A stretch of 32,770 nt of DNA. It comes from Actinomycetes bacterium. GTDB taxonomy: Bacteria > Actinomycetota > Acidimicrobiia > Spongiisociales > UBA5794. Position 1 is the stretch's first letter; the number at the start of each line of letters is the position of its first letter. The position numbers were made by a program, and so were the translations under genes. Shown here piece by piece: positions 9,519 through 17,342 of the stretch. Under the pieces are notes generated by a model. That model did no database searches, was not told the origin of the DNA, and saw only the letters and a list, made by a program, of their open reading frames with translations. The stretch lies in contig JAHEJX010000037.1 of assembly GCA_024638645.1 (NCBI GenBank), positions 1 through 32,770 of the forward strand. Reading direction: 5' to 3'.

Positions 9519-9893
9519 TCACCCCAGCAGGCTCCACAGGGTCCACGCAGTTCCCGCTGTCGCCGCCAGCGCCAGATACGCGATGACCAGGCGGGTGTCG
9601 CCGAGGAGGCAGCGGCTGGCAGCGAGCCCGCGCCGCCGCGCCCGCCAGTAGCCGGCGACGCCTATCCAGCCGAAGACGGCCACCGTGAGCGGCGGAGTGA
9701 TAAGCCAGGCGATGACCCCGATCGTCGTGTAGATGCACAGCCGCAGTGGGTCGTATTCCGCAGGCGGCGCATCTGGTGACGCAACCGCAATTGGGGACGG
9801 TCGGTCCACAACTTCTGACGTTGCTGCGGGCACGTTGGCCGCAACCGGGAGCGCCGCCGTGTCGCCGAACGCACCCGGGGCTCGATCTCTCAC
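9519..9893 (-). CDS. Small two-helix membrane protein, last gene of radical SAM operon
   Basis: A 124-residue protein with an Ala/Pro-rich, probably disordered N-terminal 50 residues and two transmembrane segments, about 53-80 (CIYTTIGVIAWLITPPLTV) and 102-123. The basic loop GYWRARRRGL between them should face the cytoplasm. The GTG start at 9893 overlaps the stop codon of the radical SAM gene in a GTGA arrangement and has GGAGG eight bases upstream, so it is translationally coupled. A longer frame up to 10232 is only a shadow of the radical SAM gene. I do not recognise the family; its place in the operon suggests a membrane partner for the enzyme. Confidence 0.75.
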   Translation of the reverse strand: MRDRAPGAFGDTAALPVAANVPAATSEVVDRPSPIAVASPDAPPAEYDPLRLCIYTTIGVIAWLITPPLTVAVFGWIGVAGYWRARRRGLAASRCLLGDTRLVIAYLALAATAGTAWTLWSLLG

Positions 9894-11503
9894 GTTGCCA
9901 CCTCCACCTCTCGTCTCGTCGGCAATAGCGCCAGCGGAGTCGTTCCCTCGTGTCGTCCCGCCACCTCGGATAGCTTGGTTCGAGCCAGCGGCGCCCACGC
10001 CTGCACCGCGCAGAATGGGGCGCACTGATCGAGGTCTTCTGCCGACTTGGTGCCGACGTGAACACAGCACTGCAGAAGCCGTTCCTCGAGCATGGTGTTG
10101 ATGTCCATGAACGGCTTGATGGTGATGCGCTTGATGCGCTCCCCGATCATTTCCCGCAACCGCTCCTGGCGGCCTACCGCCGACCCCGCCAGCCGCAGCA
10201 GGCTGGCGATACCCAGGTCGCAGGTCTCGCACACGTTGCGAATGAGCTCACCGACTGTGGGATGGCTCAGCGAAGACTGCTCGGAAAGCAGGCCGAGCAG
10301 TGAATCCTGCACAACGGCGCGCAACTCGTCGGGAATCTCGTGATCGGCGATCCGGTTCGCCACCAATCCCAGATGCTCCTTGAGGCGGTCGTGGCCGATC
10401 ATGGACACCATCGAACGCCACTCCCCCGCATCGGTCTTGACCAGGTAGCCCACCGAACAGCAGTGCGGATGCGAGCACGGCAATGCCGTCATGTCACGCC
10501 AGGTCACCAGCCCGTCCGTTTGCGGGCCGAGGCGCTTGAGAACGCCGGTGTGGGTGAGCCGTTGGTATGGGTTGATCGGGGTGGACCGGCCTGAACCGAA
10601 CTGGGGTTGAATCGTGACCCCGCCGACGTAGGGAGTATCGAGCGCCGTCTGGATGACGGCCCCGATCTCGTCGTCGTTGACGCCGAGAGTTGCCGTCATC
10701 GTGAGCGTTGTGAAGATACCGGCCCCAGACAACCGCCCCAGCGCTCGCTCCTTCATGGCCCGGAGGTCCGCCCGGCGATGGTATTGATGCGTCTCTTTGC
10801 GCAGTCCGTCGAACTGCAGGTAGGCCTCGACGCTGCTCCGGTTCCGCTGCAGTGCCGCCAGCAACTCGTCGTCCTTCGCCACGAGGACTCCGTTGGTGTT
10901 GACGAGGACGCGCACGATGTTGCGCTGACACAGTTCGTCGAGCAGCTCGATGAACTGTGGGTGCAGTGTCGGCTCCCCCCCGCTGAGCATGACGACGTCG
11001 AGCCTGCCGTTCTCCCGTGCCAGCCGCTGGTCGACGTTGGCGAGAACTTCCGCCATCGGCACCACACCCGCCATATCCGGAGACGAATCGGCGAAACACG
11101 TCGGGCAGCGCAGATTGCACACCTGGGTGATGTCCTCCAGCAGGATGCAGGTGTGCTGAGTCTGCATTTCGCCGAGCCCGCGGAGGTACGCCGCCGGCAC
11201 CGGGTCGTAGTTCCCGAACGAGTCGGGGGCATGCACCTTGGTGGGAGCCGTCCACTCCTCCAGATACCGCAGGATATCGGCATCCTCGTCGTACAGGGTG
11301 ACAACCTTGCCGTGGTCCGGACACCCCCGTACCAGCCACACTTCTCCTTCGAGCTCTGCCAGGTACCCGGACAGTCGGCGCACCTGGTCGAGCGGCCGGT
11401 CCGGCGCTTCGTCGTGACACATCGGGCAGAACGCGGTGACGTAGCGCAACACACGATCGCGCCGCAGCGGCATGCCAAGTGGGGTTTCGGTCGAGATTGT
11501 CAT
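9890..11503 (-). CDS. Radical SAM enzyme, MJ0619/tetraether-synthase-like
   Basis: A 537-residue radical SAM protein. The cluster motif is CNLRCPTC (Cys129, Cys133, Cys136), preceded by QHTCILLEDIT as in the MJ0619/Tes group, and followed by SGGEPTLHP. An N-terminal metal site is likely formed by FCPMCH (Cys26, Cys29) and GCPDHG (Cys61, His64). Further Cys clusters occur at 343/348/349, 425/428, 479/480 and 494/498. Relatives include archaeal tetraether lipid synthase and pterin methylases, which do radical chemistry on unactivated carbons. The CGLCPxH block usually found just before the TC motif is absent here. The ATG at 11503 shares one base with the upstream stop (TGATG). It sits in an operon with an Lgt-like lipid enzyme, which suggests a lipid or lipid-linked substrate. 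Confidence 0.88.
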   Translation of the reverse strand: MTISTETPLGMPLRRDRVLRYVTAFCPMCHDEAPDRPLDQVRRLSGYLAELEGEVWLVRGCPDHGKVVTLYDEDADILRYLEEWTAPTKVHAPDSFGNYDPVPAAYLRGLGEMQTQHTCILLEDITQVCNLRCPTCFADSSPDMAGVVPMAEVLANVDQRLARENGRLDVVMLSGGEPTLHPQFIELLDELCQRNIVRVLVNTNGVLVAKDDELLAALQRNRSSVEAYLQFDGLRKETHQYHRRADLRAMKERALGRLSGAGIFTTLTMTATLGVNDDEIGAVIQTALDTPYVGGVTIQPQFGSGRSTPINPYQRLTHTGVLKRLGPQTDGLVTWRDMTALPCSHPHCCSVGYLVKTDAGEWRSMVSMIGHDRLKEHLGLVANRIADHEIPDELRAVVQDSLLGLLSEQSSLSHPTVGELIRNVCETCDLGIASLLRLAGSAVGRQERLREMIGERIKRITIKPFMDINTMLEERLLQCCVHVGTKSAEDLDQCAPFCAVQAWAPLARTKLSEVAGRHEGTTPLALLPTRREVEVAT

Positions 11504-11838
11504 CAGTTGTACATCGAGCTGAGCATGGCGAAACACACCCCGGCGAGCACGGCCACTGCTGCTGCAGTCACGGCGAGGCCCCGCAGAAAGCAGCGCCTGA
11601 AACGAGGATCACGAACAGAGAAGTAGATGGCAACCACGATCCCAGCCAGGAAGACAGCCCCACTGCTGGCCGACGCAGCCGCTCCGGCAAGACTCGCCAG
11701 CGTGCCGGCGACGAAACTAAGCGCAATGAGCCCGCCGAAGACCATCAGCCCGCACACCAGGAAACCCGGCTCCTTGGGGGGCGGCTGCGGTGGAGGCATG
11801 TTGGGCGGAGGCATCTGTGGCGGTGGAGCATCAGTCAT
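11503..11838 (-). CDS. Proline-rich small membrane protein in Lgt-like/radical SAM operon
   Basis: A 111-residue protein with a proline-rich N-terminal tail (residues 5-24, PPP repeats) and about three hydrophobic segments (roughly 26-48, 58-72 and 84-107), with the basic loop DPRFRRCFLR before the last. The start at 11838 is fixed by GAGGAGG upstream and by the four-base ATGA overlap with the stop of the Lgt-like gene. Its own stop overlaps the radical SAM start by one base. It resembles generic actinobacterial Pro-rich membrane proteins; no function can be assigned. Coupling on both sides suggests it is made in fixed ratio with the two enzymes and may link them at the membrane. Confidence 0.8.
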   Translation of the reverse strand: MTDAPPPQMPPPNMPPPQPPPKEPGFLVCGLMVFGGLIALSFVAGTLASLAGAAASASSGAVFLAGIVVAIYFSVRDPRFRRCFLRGLAVTAAAVAVLAGVCFAMLSSMYN

Positions 11839-12608
11839 GCGGTGACCTCCTCGAGTCTTGGCCGGCGGGCACCCCTGGCGACCGCCCACGCCAGCAGCGG
11901 CAACGTCACAACCAGGAACACTTGGGAACCGGACAGCCCGAACGCCAACTCGGGATTGCCCCTAACGAACTCCACGAGCAACCTGAAGATCCCGTAGCCG
12001 AGCAAATACAGCTTGAACGACTGACCATCCGGCAGCCGATCGCGCGTTGCCCACAGCAGGCCGAAGGCCGCGGCATGGAAGAGGATTTCGTACAGGAATG
12101 AAGGGTGTAGCGGAGCCCCGACCATGCATTGCGGACAGTTGGGAACGGTCGCGGCCAGCTCTGGAGAGAGGGTGATCCCCCACGGCATCCTGGTCGTCGT
12201 GCCGATCTGCTCGGTGAGGAAACATCCAATACGGCCTATGGCCATGCCGAGCGCCACCGCAGGGGCGAACAACTCGCCGGTGCTGTGCCTGTAGCCGACG
12301 ATGCGCTTGGTGACGACGGCCCCGGCGTATGCCCCCGCCAGGCCGCCGAGCACGCTGCGGCCGCCGTAGAGCCACACATCTACAAACGAGCTACCGGTCA
12401 GCGTGAATTGCCAGATGGCGGCCGCCCTGGCAAAGACCCCGCCGCCGATGAGAGCACCTACCGCCACCCACCGGACCCTGTCATCGAGTTGGTTGCGGGC
12501 GCGAGCCCGGATGTAGAAGACGATCAGCGCGGCAACCAGGCCCAGGCCGATGAAGAACTCGTGCGTCGGTACGCTCCAGCCTCCAAATCGAAACAGGGTC
12601 GGCACCAT
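11835..12608 (-). CDS. Divergent prolipoprotein diacylglyceryl transferase-like protein
   Basis: A 257-residue polytopic membrane protein of the Lgt family with about seven hydrophobic segments. Recognisable signatures are GGRSVLGGLAG (82-92), GRIGCF (125-130), HPSFLYE (168-174) and FRLLVEFVRGNPE (208-220). In the canonical Escherichia coli enzyme the first motif carries an essential His (HGGL) and the second an Asn (GRxGNF); here these are Leu87 and Cys129, and the NGE block is replaced by TEQ. It also has an NCPQC pair (Cys158, Cys161). Normal lipoprotein maturation is therefore doubtful and another lipid-transfer role is possible. First gene of the operon running down to 9519; no clear ribosome binding site at the ATG. 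Confidence 0.85.
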   Translation of the reverse strand: MVPTLFRFGGWSVPTHEFFIGLGLVAALIVFYIRARARNQLDDRVRWVAVGALIGGGVFARAAAIWQFTLTGSSFVDVWLYGGRSVLGGLAGAYAGAVVTKRIVGYRHSTGELFAPAVALGMAIGRIGCFLTEQIGTTTRMPWGITLSPELAATVPNCPQCMVGAPLHPSFLYEILFHAAAFGLLWATRDRLPDGQSFKLYLLGYGIFRLLVEFVRGNPELAFGLSGSQVFLVVTLPLLAWAVARGARRPRLEEVTA

Positions 12609-14050: not shown

Positions 14051-15802
14051 ATGACAATGACCACAACGAAGCGAGCCCGCTGGGCTGTTTCCTTCGCAGC
14101 ATTCCTCACCGCCGCTACCGCCCTGGTTGCGGCGCCGGTCACAGCATCGTCTGACACCAGCACCGTGTCGGTGATCGTGCGCGAGACAGCAGACGCGGCC
14201 AATGAAGCCGAGAACTATGTCACCCATCACGGGGGCTCGATCGGCAATCAACTCGCCATTATCGACTCGTTCGAAGCTTCGCTTCCCGCCACGGCCGTCG
14301 CCGATCTCGAAGCTCTCCCCAGCGTTGTGGCTGTCACGCCGAACGCCGCCGTCCAACTCCTCGACTGGGACACTACGCCCGGCCACACCCGCAACACAAT
14401 GGATCGCATCACCAACGACGTGCTCGAGGCGGACAAGTTCTGGAACGACGGCTCCCACGGGCAAGGTATCGACATTGCATTGATCGACTCCGGAGTCGTG
14501 CCTGTTGAAGGCCTCACCGTCGCAGGAAAGATCGTCAACGGGCCCGACCTGTCCTTCGAGTCACAAGCGGACAACCTGATGTATCTGGACACGTACGGAC
14601 ACGGCACGCACCTCGCCGGAATCATGGCCGGCAATGACGGACACGCCTCGAATATCACTACCCATTCTGTCAAGAGGGGATTCCTCGGCGTGGCTCCCGA
14701 GGCCCGCGTGGTATCAATCAAGGTGGCCGACGCCAACGGCAACACCGATGTCTCGCAGGTCATCGCCGCCATTGATTGGGTCGTGCAACACCGCAACGAC
14801 AACGGGCTCAACATCCGGGTGCTCAATCTGTCGTTCGGCACCGATTCGACTCAGGGCTACAGGCTCGACCCGCTGGCATACGCCGCTGAGGTGGCTTGGA
14901 AGCATGGCATCGTCGTCGTAGTCGCTGCCGGTAACGACGGCAACGATTCCCGGCTGCGCAACCCGGCGACGAATCCTTTCGTCATCGCTGTCGGAGCTCT
15001 CGACGCCAACGGGACAAGCCGCACCCGCGACGATTGGCTACCAGGATTCTCGAGCTGCGGAACAGCGACCCGCCACGTGGATGTTCTCGCACCAGGCAAG
15101 TCGATTGTCAGCCTGCGGGCCCCCGGCTCATCAGCGGACCTGGACTTCCCGAACGCAAGGGTCGACGACCGCTACTTCAAGGGCAGCGGCACGTCTCAGG
15201 CAGCCGCCATGGTCTCCGGCGCAGCCGCGCTACTCATCAGCCAGCGGCCCGACCTGACCCCGGACCAGGTCAAGAAGATCCTCGTCGACACCACGGACAC
15301 AGTGTGGTGGATCGCCGACGAGTGCCATGGCGCCGGGTTAATCGATCTGGACGCGGCTGCGAATGCGTCAACGCCATCCGCACTCGCCGCTCTGCAGACA
15401 CACGACCCGGCAACCGGCCTCGGCTCACTAGAGGCAGCTCGCGGCTCGATGCACGTGGCAATGGACGGTGTGGTCCTCATCGGTGAGCAAGACATCTTTG
15501 GACAGTATTGGAACGGCGCCTCCTGGTCTGGAGCATCGTGGAGCGGCGCATCCTGGTCAGGCGGCGAGTGGAACAGCTCGACGTGGACCGGCGCATCGTG
15601 GAGCGGCGCATCGTGGTCAGGAGCATCGTGGAGCGGCGCATCGTGGAGCGGCGCATCGTGGTCAGGAGCTTCCTGGTCCGGCGCTTCGTGGTCGGCCAAC
15701 ACATGGAATGGCGCCTCGTGGTCTGGAGCATCGTGGAGCGGTGCCTCGTGGAGTGGAGCTTCGTGGAGCTCCAACGGATGGCTGGGTGGCTCATGGGACT
15801 GA
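14051..15802 (+). CDS. Secreted S8 subtilase with Trp-periodic C-terminal repeat tail
   Basis: A 583-residue exported serine protease. A signal peptide (about 1-33, ending VTASS) is followed by an I9-like propeptide (about 38-103). The catalytic domain carries Asp146 (IDSG), His184 (GHGTHLAG), Asn295 (AAGNDGN) and Ser382 (GTSQAAAMVSG), all intact. From residue 487 to 582 the chain becomes a pentapeptide repeat, mostly WSGAS, in which a Trp occurs at every fifth residue without exception, 20 times; variants such as EWNSS, TWTGA and TWNGA keep the spacing. Such a tail could pack as a beta structure that binds the cell wall, a polymer or other proteases; its role is unknown. GGAG lies upstream of the ATG, with a second ATG two codons in. 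Confidence 0.9.
   Translation: MTMTTTKRARWAVSFAAFLTAATALVAAPVTASSDTSTVSVIVRETADAANEAENYVTHHGGSIGNQLAIIDSFEASLPATAVADLEALPSVVAVTPNAAVQLLDWDTTPGHTRNTMDRITNDVLEADKFWNDGSHGQGIDIALIDSGVVPVEGLTVAGKIVNGPDLSFESQADNLMYLDTYGHGTHLAGIMAGNDGHASNITTHSVKRGFLGVAPEARVVSIKVADANGNTDVSQVIAAIDWVVQHRNDNGLNIRVLNLSFGTDSTQGYRLDPLAYAAEVAWKHGIVVVVAAGNDGNDSRLRNPATNPFVIAVGALDANGTSRTRDDWLPGFSSCGTATRHVDVLAPGKSIVSLRAPGSSADLDFPNARVDDRYFKGSGTSQAAAMVSGAAALLISQRPDLTPDQVKKILVDTTDTVWWIADECHGAGLIDLDAAANASTPSALAALQTHDPATGLGSLEAARGSMHVAMDGVVLIGEQDIFGQYWNGASWSGASWSGASWSGGEWNSSTWTGASWSGASWSGASWSGASWSGASWSGASWSGASWSANTWNGASWSGASWSGASWSGASWSSNGWLGGSWD
15509..15799 (+). repeat. 15-bp tandem repeat encoding WSGAS pentapeptides
   Basis: An in-frame tandem array of a 15-base unit close to TGGAGCGGCGCATCG, with synonymous and a few amino-acid-changing differences between copies (TCC/TCG, GGA/GGC, GCA/GCC/GCT). 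It encodes the C-terminal 96 residues of the subtilase. Period and reading frame never slip over 19-20 units. Nearly identical neighbouring copies suggest expansion and contraction by recombination or slippage. Confidence 0.9.
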
Positions 15803-15899: not shown

Positions 15900-16094
15900 G
15901 GAGGCGTGACGCCCTACCTCGACCACTCCCCTGAGGTTGATCGGAGCAACAGCTACCCCAATGCACTGTCTGGCCCCATGCCGGGTAGCGAGTCGCGGGG
16001 ATGGGCCGGAATCCTCTACTGGTGTTGACGCTCCTGGAGGATGATGTTGTCAGCAGACCTCCGGCCTGCGGCGCGCAGAGTAGGAGGCGAAGCG

Positions 16095-17342
16095 ATGGGT
16101 ATCGCAAGTGTTCTCCACCACCACCGGATAGTTGCAGTATTGGCGTGCCTGCTGTTGGTCACGGCATGCGGGTCGGCCGACCAGGAGCCCACCACGAGCT
16201 CTCCGGTGGCGTCGACCTCGGCCCCGACCACTGCGGCACCTACTACGGGCCCGCCTGCGACCACAGTGGCGCCACCGACAACATCGTCCACGGCACCGAC
16301 TACGACGAGCCCTCCAGCTACGACGACCACGACCCCGCCAACCACGACCACGACTACGACCACCACCACCACAACGACAACAACGACGCTGCTGCCGCCG
16401 CCTCCCTTCGTCGGCTCGACCAAGCCGGTGAGCGGGCCTGGTAGCGGTTTCGGCCAGCTGGAAGAGACCCGGATGGCCCAGCATGTCAACTACGACCGGT
16501 TCGTTCTCGAATTCGAAGAGCACGTGCCCGCGTACGACATCGCATATGCCCATCCGCCGTTCATCGACATCCCAGGCAACATGGTCGGCGTGTGCGGGAA
16601 TGCCTTCCTCGCCGTGAACCTCCATGGAGCCTCCACGGTCGACTGGGAGGAGTCCGCCGGTGAAGACATCGTCCTGTCCTACGAGGGCCCATGGCGAGTC
16701 ACTGCCACTACGGACAACTACACAGAGGCCGTCTTCGTCACAGACTTCGAGTCGGACATGGAGTGGATCGTCGGGCTGGCGGATCGGGTTCCCTTCCGAG
16801 TCATCGAGTTGGCTAGCCCGGCGCGGCTGGTCATCGACGTCGGCCACGGCGATGTCACCAAGGCTGAGATCCCCACGCAGATGATCGACGGCAAGGGCAC
16901 CGGTTTCGGCTGGATGGCCGACTCTCGCCTGGCGGGCCACGACACGTTCGATCGCTTTGTGATCCAGTTCCGCGGCGGGTACCAACCCGGAGACGACTAC
17001 CCCGAGCCCGGCAGGCCCAACTACATGATCCACTACGCGACCGGCCCCTTTGGGGGCTGCGACGCAACGGATCTGATCCCGGTCGACGGTGATGCGTTCA
17101 TCATGGTCGAGCTGCGGCCGGCAACCGGTACGGACTGGAACGTCGACCCGCCACGGGTCATCTACACAGGGGAGAATCGACTGGCCGCCGACACCGTCAA
17201 CATCACGGAGGCGGTGCTGGCCGGCGAATGTGAAGGAATCCAATGGGTGATCGGCGTGGATGCGGTAACGACGTTCAGCGTGACCTGGATGACAAACCCG
17301 CTGCGCCTGGTGATCGACGTCCCGCATGTGACGGTGGATTGA
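16095..17342 (+). CDS. Lipoprotein with poly-Thr linker and two AMIN-like domains
   Basis: A 415-residue lipoprotein: signal peptide with lipobox LLVTAC (lipidated Cys25), a long Thr/Pro/Ser linker (about 31-100, including an unbroken run of about 16 Thr), then two homologous AMIN-like domains at about 115-265 and 285-410. The repeat is visible from paired motifs: GSGFGQLEETRMAQHVNYDRFVLEF versus a matching GTGFGWMADSRLAGH and DRFVIQF block, and closing SPARLVIDV versus NPLRLVIDV. AMIN domains bind peptidoglycan or septal/cell-wall partners; this group is common in actinobacterial lipoproteins. The start at 16095 is fixed by GGAGG seven bases upstream; an earlier in-frame ATG at 16041 would mask the signal peptide. 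Confidence 0.85.
   Translation: MGIASVLHHHRIVAVLACLLLVTACGSADQEPTTSSPVASTSAPTTAAPTTGPPATTVAPPTTSSTAPTTTSPPATTTTTPPTTTTTTTTTTTTTTTTLLPPPPFVGSTKPVSGPGSGFGQLEETRMAQHVNYDRFVLEFEEHVPAYDIAYAHPPFIDIPGNMVGVCGNAFLAVNLHGASTVDWEESAGEDIVLSYEGPWRVTATTDNYTEAVFVTDFESDMEWIVGLADRVPFRVIELASPARLVIDVGHGDVTKAEIPTQMIDGKGTGFGWMADSRLAGHDTFDRFVIQFRGGYQPGDDYPEPGRPNYMIHYATGPFGGCDATDLIPVDGDAFIMVELRPATGTDWNVDPPRVIYTGENRLAADTVNITEAVLAGECEGIQWVIGVDAVTTFSVTWMTNPLRLVIDVPHVTVD

Follow-up and report, generated by a model that had tools for sequence, protein, structure and literature searches.

A conserved operon of an Lgt paralogue, a radical SAM enzyme and a small membrane protein with an invariant G-x-C tail

Genes and motifs of the operon

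The window, a 32,770-nucleotide stretch of DNA from an Actinomycetes bacterium (assembly GCA_024638645.1, contig JAHEJX010000037.1), carries on its minus strand a four-gene operon. The genes encode a paralogue of prolipoprotein diacylglyceryl transferase (the LGT-like protein), a proline-rich small membrane protein (MID), a radical S-adenosylmethionine (SAM) enzyme and a second small membrane protein (SMALL). The genes and their main motifs are listed below in the order of transcription.

11835..12608, minus strand: LGT-like gene, prolipoprotein diacylglyceryl transferase paralogue; ATG start, 257 amino acids (aa), Pfam LGT
12561..12563, minus strand: H16 of the LGT-like protein, at the position of Y26 of E. 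coli Lgt; invariant, 82/82 orthologues
12222..12233, minus strand: R126-I-G-C129 of the LGT-like protein, active-site motif (positions of R143 and N146 of E. coli Lgt); C129 invariant, 82/82 orthologues
11503..11838, minus strand: MID, proline-rich small membrane protein; ATG start, 111 aa, three predicted transmembrane (TM) helices
11533..11541, minus strand: G100-V101-C102 of MID, the invariant G-x-C at the predicted outer end of the last TM helix, 9 residues before the C-terminus
9890..11503, minus strand: radical SAM gene, Tes/TrsS superfamily; ATG start, 537 aa
11312..11428, minus strand: N-terminal rubredoxin-like metal site of the radical SAM enzyme, C26-x2-C29 ... C61-x2-H64; invariant, ligand pattern of Tes plus an insertion
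11096..11119, minus strand: CX3CX2C cluster motif of the radical SAM enzyme (C129, C133, C136); invariant in the alignment
9519..9893, minus strand: SMALL, small membrane protein; GTG start, 124 aa, signature DPxxxC ... GLxxSxCxLxDxR
9735..9737, minus strand: C53 of SMALL, kept in 58/60 orthologues
9609..9611, minus strand: C95 of SMALL, kept in 59/60 orthologues

The junctions read ATGA between the LGT-like gene and MID (4 bases), TGATG between MID and the radical SAM gene (1 base) and GTGA between the radical SAM gene and SMALL (4 bases). These are exactly the overlaps of 4, 1 and 4 bases described in an earlier reading of the window by a model (the original prediction). The start of MID overlaps the stop of the LGT-like gene in the same -4 arrangement in 57 of 65 cases. 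Neither MID nor SMALL gave anything above cut-off in Pfam; the two conserved cysteines of SMALL are predicted to lie at the cytoplasmic membrane surface.

Conservation of the module and of the G-x-C tail

A single scan across 84,980 species genomes for relatives of the radical SAM enzyme returned 410 stretches. The best 80 of the 410, with radical SAM proteins of 66-82% identity, are from Mycobacterium, Nocardia, Nonomuraea, Microbispora, Dactylosporangium, Oscillochloris, Gemmatimonadetes, Blastocatellia and Rhodothermales. The original prediction had proposed a search for conserved gene order in other genomes as a check, and the outcome favours it: the order is kept in Actinomycetota, Chloroflexota, Gemmatimonadota, Acidobacteriota and Rhodothermales, across at least five phyla. 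The LGT-like gene lies directly 5' of the radical SAM gene in practically every related locus that extends far enough, and SMALL lies directly 3' in most; SMALL was absent from the search results in one mycobacterial group and one divergent clade. The position of MID differs in Nonomuraea, where one or two MIDs stand immediately upstream of the LGT-like gene, and in a divergent clade (L107-L109), where it is likewise upstream. No conserved protease or transporter was found in the module. No other neighbour was common across phyla in the related loci, indicating that the module is compact and has probably spread horizontally.

The module is patchy across 60 genomes related to that of the window, and the radical SAM gene is carried by 32 of the 118 Mycobacterium genomes sampled. 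A full-family radical SAM protein was detected in six of 296 Actinomycetota genomes (E < 1e-140; next best 4e-77), and an operon-type LGT in the same six and no others (E < 1e-87; next best 1.7e-51). The probability of this match by chance is about 1e-12 if genomes are taken as independent; three of the six belong to one family, so they are not. The arrangement of the operon is non-random and the genetic module is solid; its chemistry is what we infer below.

Some further copies were observed. In the window's own genome, a second SMALL gene (contig C34, L102, 7081-7514) follows the last 38 residues of a radical SAM copy (59% identical), and this pair appears to be the remnant of a decayed duplicate operon. 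One Mycobacterium genome (G652:C1, 4266435-4267953) has the radical SAM gene in two overlapping pieces, probably through a frameshift. In M. wolinskyi (locus L020), which we take to belong to the same group as M. smegmatis, the operon lies a few kilobases from the ppx and DUF501 genes.

MID proteins range from 35 to 236 aa overall (42-236 aa for those between the LGT-like and radical SAM genes), and their proline-rich, DUF2510 and single-helix forms are barely alignable across phyla. The conserved part is the final TM helix with its G-x-C, 5-23 residues before the stop codon. Nearly every operon encodes one or two MID-type proteins whose last TM helix ends in this way, some genomes having two tandem paralogues. 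The glycine at -2 and the cysteine are present in 65/65 motif-bearing MIDs; the -1 residue between them is F in 32, I in 9, L in 7, T in 5, V in 4, A in 4, Y in 3 and M in 1, and the lipobox pattern [LV][ASTVI][GAS]C is found in only 3/65. This invariant G-x-C, overlooked by the original prediction, is the most informative part of the operon.

A uniform scan found a coding-strand open reading frame with a G-x-C tail in 73 of 78 loci, compared with 1/69, 1/69 and 1/78 in three control stretches; the tail was present in 1 of 828 background genes. Among the five loci without such a frame, L016 has LQGTC and failed the filter only, L075 is truncated, and the remainder are L022, L033 and L038. In the divergent clade L107-L109 the motif is carried by minimal single-helix peptides of 35-39 aa (e.g. 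...VLVIGIGVCVFVVAGG) encoded directly upstream of the LGT-like gene. Upstream of the tiny peptide these three loci encode a protein of two helices whose N-terminal part is bPH-like, and in L108 an isoprenylcysteine-methyltransferase-like protein lies between the two (both assigned by eye).

A profile of the actinobacterial tail was matched in 16 of 19 carrier genomes, at the operon only and with one or two MIDs per genome; the three without a match are those already seen to lack MID. In the 296-genome set the profile found one carrier and one weak match (6e-4). The window's own, more divergent MID was unmatched in this set, so the profile covers the alignable form only. Since no copies were found outside the operon in the 16 carriers, the tail was rejected as a generic sorting tag. 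A C-terminal sorting tag of the MYXO-CTERM type has its motif before a TM helix, a basic cytoplasmic C-terminus and many substrates, features that differ from those of MID, whose cysteine comes after the helix.

Over the 65 MIDs, 186 K/R and 30 D/E residues precede the last helix, compared with 11 K/R and 25 D/E after the cysteine. The median distance from the last basic residue to the cysteine is 21 residues (quartiles 21-21), many of these proteins being homologous to each other. By the positive-inside rule, MID is predicted to be oriented N-in/C-out; its cysteine would then lie at the outer membrane face, where a lipoprotein signal peptide also has it. An ordinary lipoprotein, processed by signal peptidase II, was excluded by the C-terminal position of the cysteine and by the -1 residue. 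The tail looks like an uncleavable C-terminal lipobox next to a dedicated Lgt paralogue.

The Lgt paralogue and the radical SAM enzyme

The LGT-like protein matches Pfam LGT (E 3.9e-31, 108.7 bits against a cut-off of 24.9) and falls below every NCBIfam Lgt equivalog cut-off (TIGR00544, 76.1 bits against 118.9). Its AlphaFold model (pLDDT 87.7) had E. coli Lgt (5azb, E 2e-7) as the sole match below 1e-3. Duplication of the housekeeping enzyme was rejected as an explanation, since an ordinary, higher-scoring Lgt is encoded elsewhere in the genome in 18 of the 18 carriers tested.

Residues H16, G89-L90, R126, C129, E133, HPS and YE (of HPSxxYE), R209, E213 and R216 are invariant across 82 LGT-like orthologues. 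Mapped on E. coli Lgt, R143 (R126), R239 (R209) and E243 are kept, Y26 is replaced by H and N146 by C (82/82). H103 is missing, as it is from the ordinary Lgt of the same genome. According to one report (PMC13251419), E. coli Lgt cannot do without Y26, R143, N146 and R239, of which R143 and R239 position the lipid phosphate, H103 is not universal, and a cysteine at the N146 position occurs in distant Lgt relatives. The same source describes MSMEG_5408, a second Lgt homologue of M. smegmatis presumed to have low activity, with exactly Y26H and N146C; it is probably an operon-type protein. In one actinobacterial family (L168, L170-L173) an Lgt subfamily reading GRLGCFxNGCCYGKET was observed, also with Cys at the N146 position, so N146C is not unique to the operon Lgt.

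The radical SAM enzyme matched Pfam Radical_SAM (3e-22) and Zn_ribbon_HMPTM (1.2e-8), and its nearest solved structure was the tetraether synthase Tes (MJ0619; 7tol, E 2e-30). Its AlphaFold model (pLDDT 71.8, pTM 0.77) was closest to Tes (E 2.4e-24), followed by SkfB (6.5e-7), a maturase of ribosomally synthesised and post-translationally modified peptides (RiPPs). The best NCBIfam match was TrsS at 186.1 bits, against a cut-off of 490, and Tes scored 146.7 against 450; membership of TrsS was excluded by this score. The operon enzymes formed one clade (support 0.99), with a stem of about 1.66 substitutions per site, when placed in a tree together with Tes, bacterial Tes and TrsS-like proteins.

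The metal sites described for Tes are a rubredoxin-like site, a cluster near the N-terminus bound by C73/C77/C80 and a histidine, the radical SAM cluster itself and a further cluster at the C-terminus (PMC9433317). The rubredoxin-like site, the CX3CX2C motif and a cysteine-rich C-terminus are all kept in the operon enzymes, and the cysteines of the N-terminal cluster motif are present in 0/25. The description of the enzyme as tetraether-synthase-like in the original prediction was not upheld as stated: score, tree and absent N-terminal cluster ligands exclude Tes, and the operon enzymes are, by sequence, a new family in the Tes/TrsS superfamily. The pterin role that had been attached to MJ0619 is withdrawn, MJ0619 being tetraether synthase (PMC9692996, PMC9433317). 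Because the operon enzymes form a separate clade and lack the cluster ligands, their substrate cannot be inferred from Tes, and action on lipid tails is not implied by their relatives.

Close Tes homologues were observed in genomes of the phylum of L022 (Gemmatimonadaceae; L154-L156 and L159); L154, which was scanned, scored 582 bits and passes the NCBIfam Tes cut-off. These carriers are candidate producers of membrane-spanning lipids. In other actinobacteria, L118 and L119, the gene next after a TrsS-like radical SAM gene is small and, judged by eye, methyltransferase-like.

Elsewhere in the window, a subtilisin-like protease has a long C-terminal tandem repeat of GASWS type (14051-15802), and a secreted protein has a long Thr-rich linker encoded by a simple repeat (16041-17342).

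Possible function and comparison with known systems

An Lgt paralogue co-translated with a peptide whose end bears a lipobox-like cysteine is most simply read as lipidating that peptide, and the placement of the cysteine, the exclusivity of the tail and the exact co-occurrence of the two enzymes support such a model. The operon would then be a self-contained, patchy module that makes and modifies the small membrane peptide MID. MID would insert N-in/C-out and present its terminal G-x-C cysteine at the outer face as the site of Lgt action, where the paralogue would most likely attach a diacylglyceryl (or related glycerolipid) group. Cleavage by signal peptidase II would not be expected, because of the bulky -1 residue and the C-terminal position of the motif. 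Before or after lipidation, the radical SAM enzyme would perform radical C-H functionalisation of the same product, targeting either its acyl chains or the peptide, and SMALL may dock or feed this enzyme. That a dedicated system lipidates and radically modifies MID is our preferred reading, held tentatively and with somewhat less than even confidence.

Several observations weigh against it. The -1 residue of MID is mostly not G, A or S, so there is no standard lipobox, and the G-x-C might just as well serve in docking or have a structural role. Three loci (L022, L033 and L038) have the LGT-like and radical SAM genes and no recognisable MID nearby. With Y26H and N146C the paralogue departs from E. 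coli Lgt at two essential positions, and low Lgt activity is presumed for MSMEG_5408, which carries the same two changes (PMC13251419). Finally, the radical SAM enzyme and the cysteines of SMALL are predicted to be on the cytoplasmic side, apart from where Lgt acts, and one product shared by both enzymes would therefore require a handover step.

The system might instead modify free membrane lipids, with the radical SAM enzyme coupling or altering bulk acyl chains, the Lgt paralogue moving diacylglyceryl between lipids, and MID and SMALL serving as subunits of a complex. The fold of the enzyme is nearest to Tes, Tes made in E. coli binds bacterial phospholipids (PMC9433317), and bacterial Tes homologues, for which branched tetraethers were suggested (Zeng 2022), have been proposed for membrane-spanning lipids (PMC8941075). 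The enzyme nevertheless groups apart from Tes in the tree and is missing the ligands of the N-terminal cluster, and free-lipid chemistry leaves the retention of G-x-C in divergent MIDs unexplained. Against it we also count that we know of no membrane-spanning lipids from mycobacteria or Nocardia. We regard this as unlikely, though worth keeping in view; the G-x-C points to a lipidated peptide or protein as being at least as likely as a free membrane lipid. Of the undescribed lipid or lipoprotein modification pathway suggested originally, there stands a conserved, undescribed operon joining an Lgt paralogue to a Tes-superfamily radical SAM enzyme; the action on lipid tails cannot be deduced from the relatives of the latter.

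A RiPP-like maturation, in which the radical SAM enzyme modifies MID itself (for example by a Cys thioether or a C-C bond close to G-x-C), with the Lgt paralogue adding a lipid anchor or handling the product, would account for a small, variable, sometimes tandem precursor with an invariant short motif beside a radical SAM enzyme with auxiliary cysteines. SkfB is the best fold match after Tes, and the DAG-RiPPs offer a precedent (PMC12636315). No leader-binding domain was found by Pfam, the module has no conserved protease or transporter, and the G-x-C cysteine is predicted to be outside while the enzyme is cytosolic; we consider such maturation decidedly unlikely. Least probable in our judgement is a system without lipid transfer, in which an inactive Lgt paralogue and MID form a disulfide or metal site between the MID cysteine and C129 for redox or sensing. 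The invariant C129 at an essential Lgt position, the invariant MID cysteine and the presence of one or two MIDs per genome are consistent with this, but R126, R209 and other Lgt core residues are invariant, as for an active lipid enzyme, and a cysteine at the N146 position is shared by another Lgt subfamily and by distant Lgt relatives (PMC13251419).

If lipidation and radical modification of MID is correct, the operon would provide a dedicated route of protein lipidation without a lipobox, along with a new family of radical SAM enzymes for which a candidate substrate can be named. It is present in roughly one in four of the Mycobacterium genomes sampled, as well as in cultured members of Nocardia, Nonomuraea and Microbispora. 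The model might also account for a puzzle in M. smegmatis, its second and apparently weak Lgt (PMC13251419), with the G-x-C cysteine as the residue concerned. A bolder extension, which we hold to be improbable, is a new class of lipopeptide in common environmental actinobacteria and other phyla, left uncleaved and lipidated by the dedicated Lgt paralogue on the outer-face G-x-C, whose tails are linked or altered from the opposite side by a cytosolic Tes-like radical SAM enzyme to give a peptide-anchored, possibly membrane-spanning lipid.

No description of the pairing of an Lgt paralogue with a radical SAM enzyme was found in the literature searched. Both enzyme superfamilies are established; it is their combination with a dedicated G-x-C peptide, as well as the radical SAM clade, that appear to be undescribed. 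The operon shares with lipoprotein maturation (Lgt and lipobox) the Lgt fold, most core residues and, as predicted, an N-in/C-out helix followed by an outer-face cysteine. It differs in that the MID motif is C-terminal in a multi- or single-TM peptide, is a G-x-C with a usually bulky -1 residue and has no Lsp site, and in that a dedicated Y26H/N146C Lgt is always accompanied by a radical SAM enzyme. MSMEG_5408 has the same two replacements, both invariant in the operon LGT; the accessible part of its description discusses the Lgt alone, with the radical SAM enzyme and the peptide unmentioned there (PMC13251419).

The radical SAM enzyme resembles Tes in overall fold, the rubredoxin-like site (C9X2C12X20C33X2H36 in Tes, PMC9433317; the operon pattern is the same plus an insertion), CX3CX2C and a C-terminal FMD...CC...PFC region, but is only about 22% identical in the structural alignment and has bacterial operon partners. 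Most of the examined relatives resembling the TrsS radical SAM (seleno)protein family keep GCPxDCGxC, unlike the operon enzymes, and two have a methyltransferase-like gene next to them, with neither an Lgt nor a G-x-C peptide in that place.

MYXO-CTERM proteins, the substrates of myxosortase, have a C-terminal TM region with an invariant cysteine for which Lgt-like lipidation has been proposed (PMC11980579). Their cysteine precedes the TM helix in an inverted topology, and dozens of substrates per genome are cleaved, whereas the operon has one or two dedicated peptides with the cysteine after the helix and no sortase in the module. The DAG-RiPPs (dyb product) likewise combine enzymatic maturation of a peptide with an Lgt-type lipid, but use the ordinary cellular Lgt, a canonical N-terminal lipobox and an MNIO enzyme instead of a radical SAM enzyme (PMC12636315). 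The DAG-RiPPs and the MYXO-CTERM lipidation proposal are the closest prior ideas, differing from the operon in topology, substrate number or enzymes.

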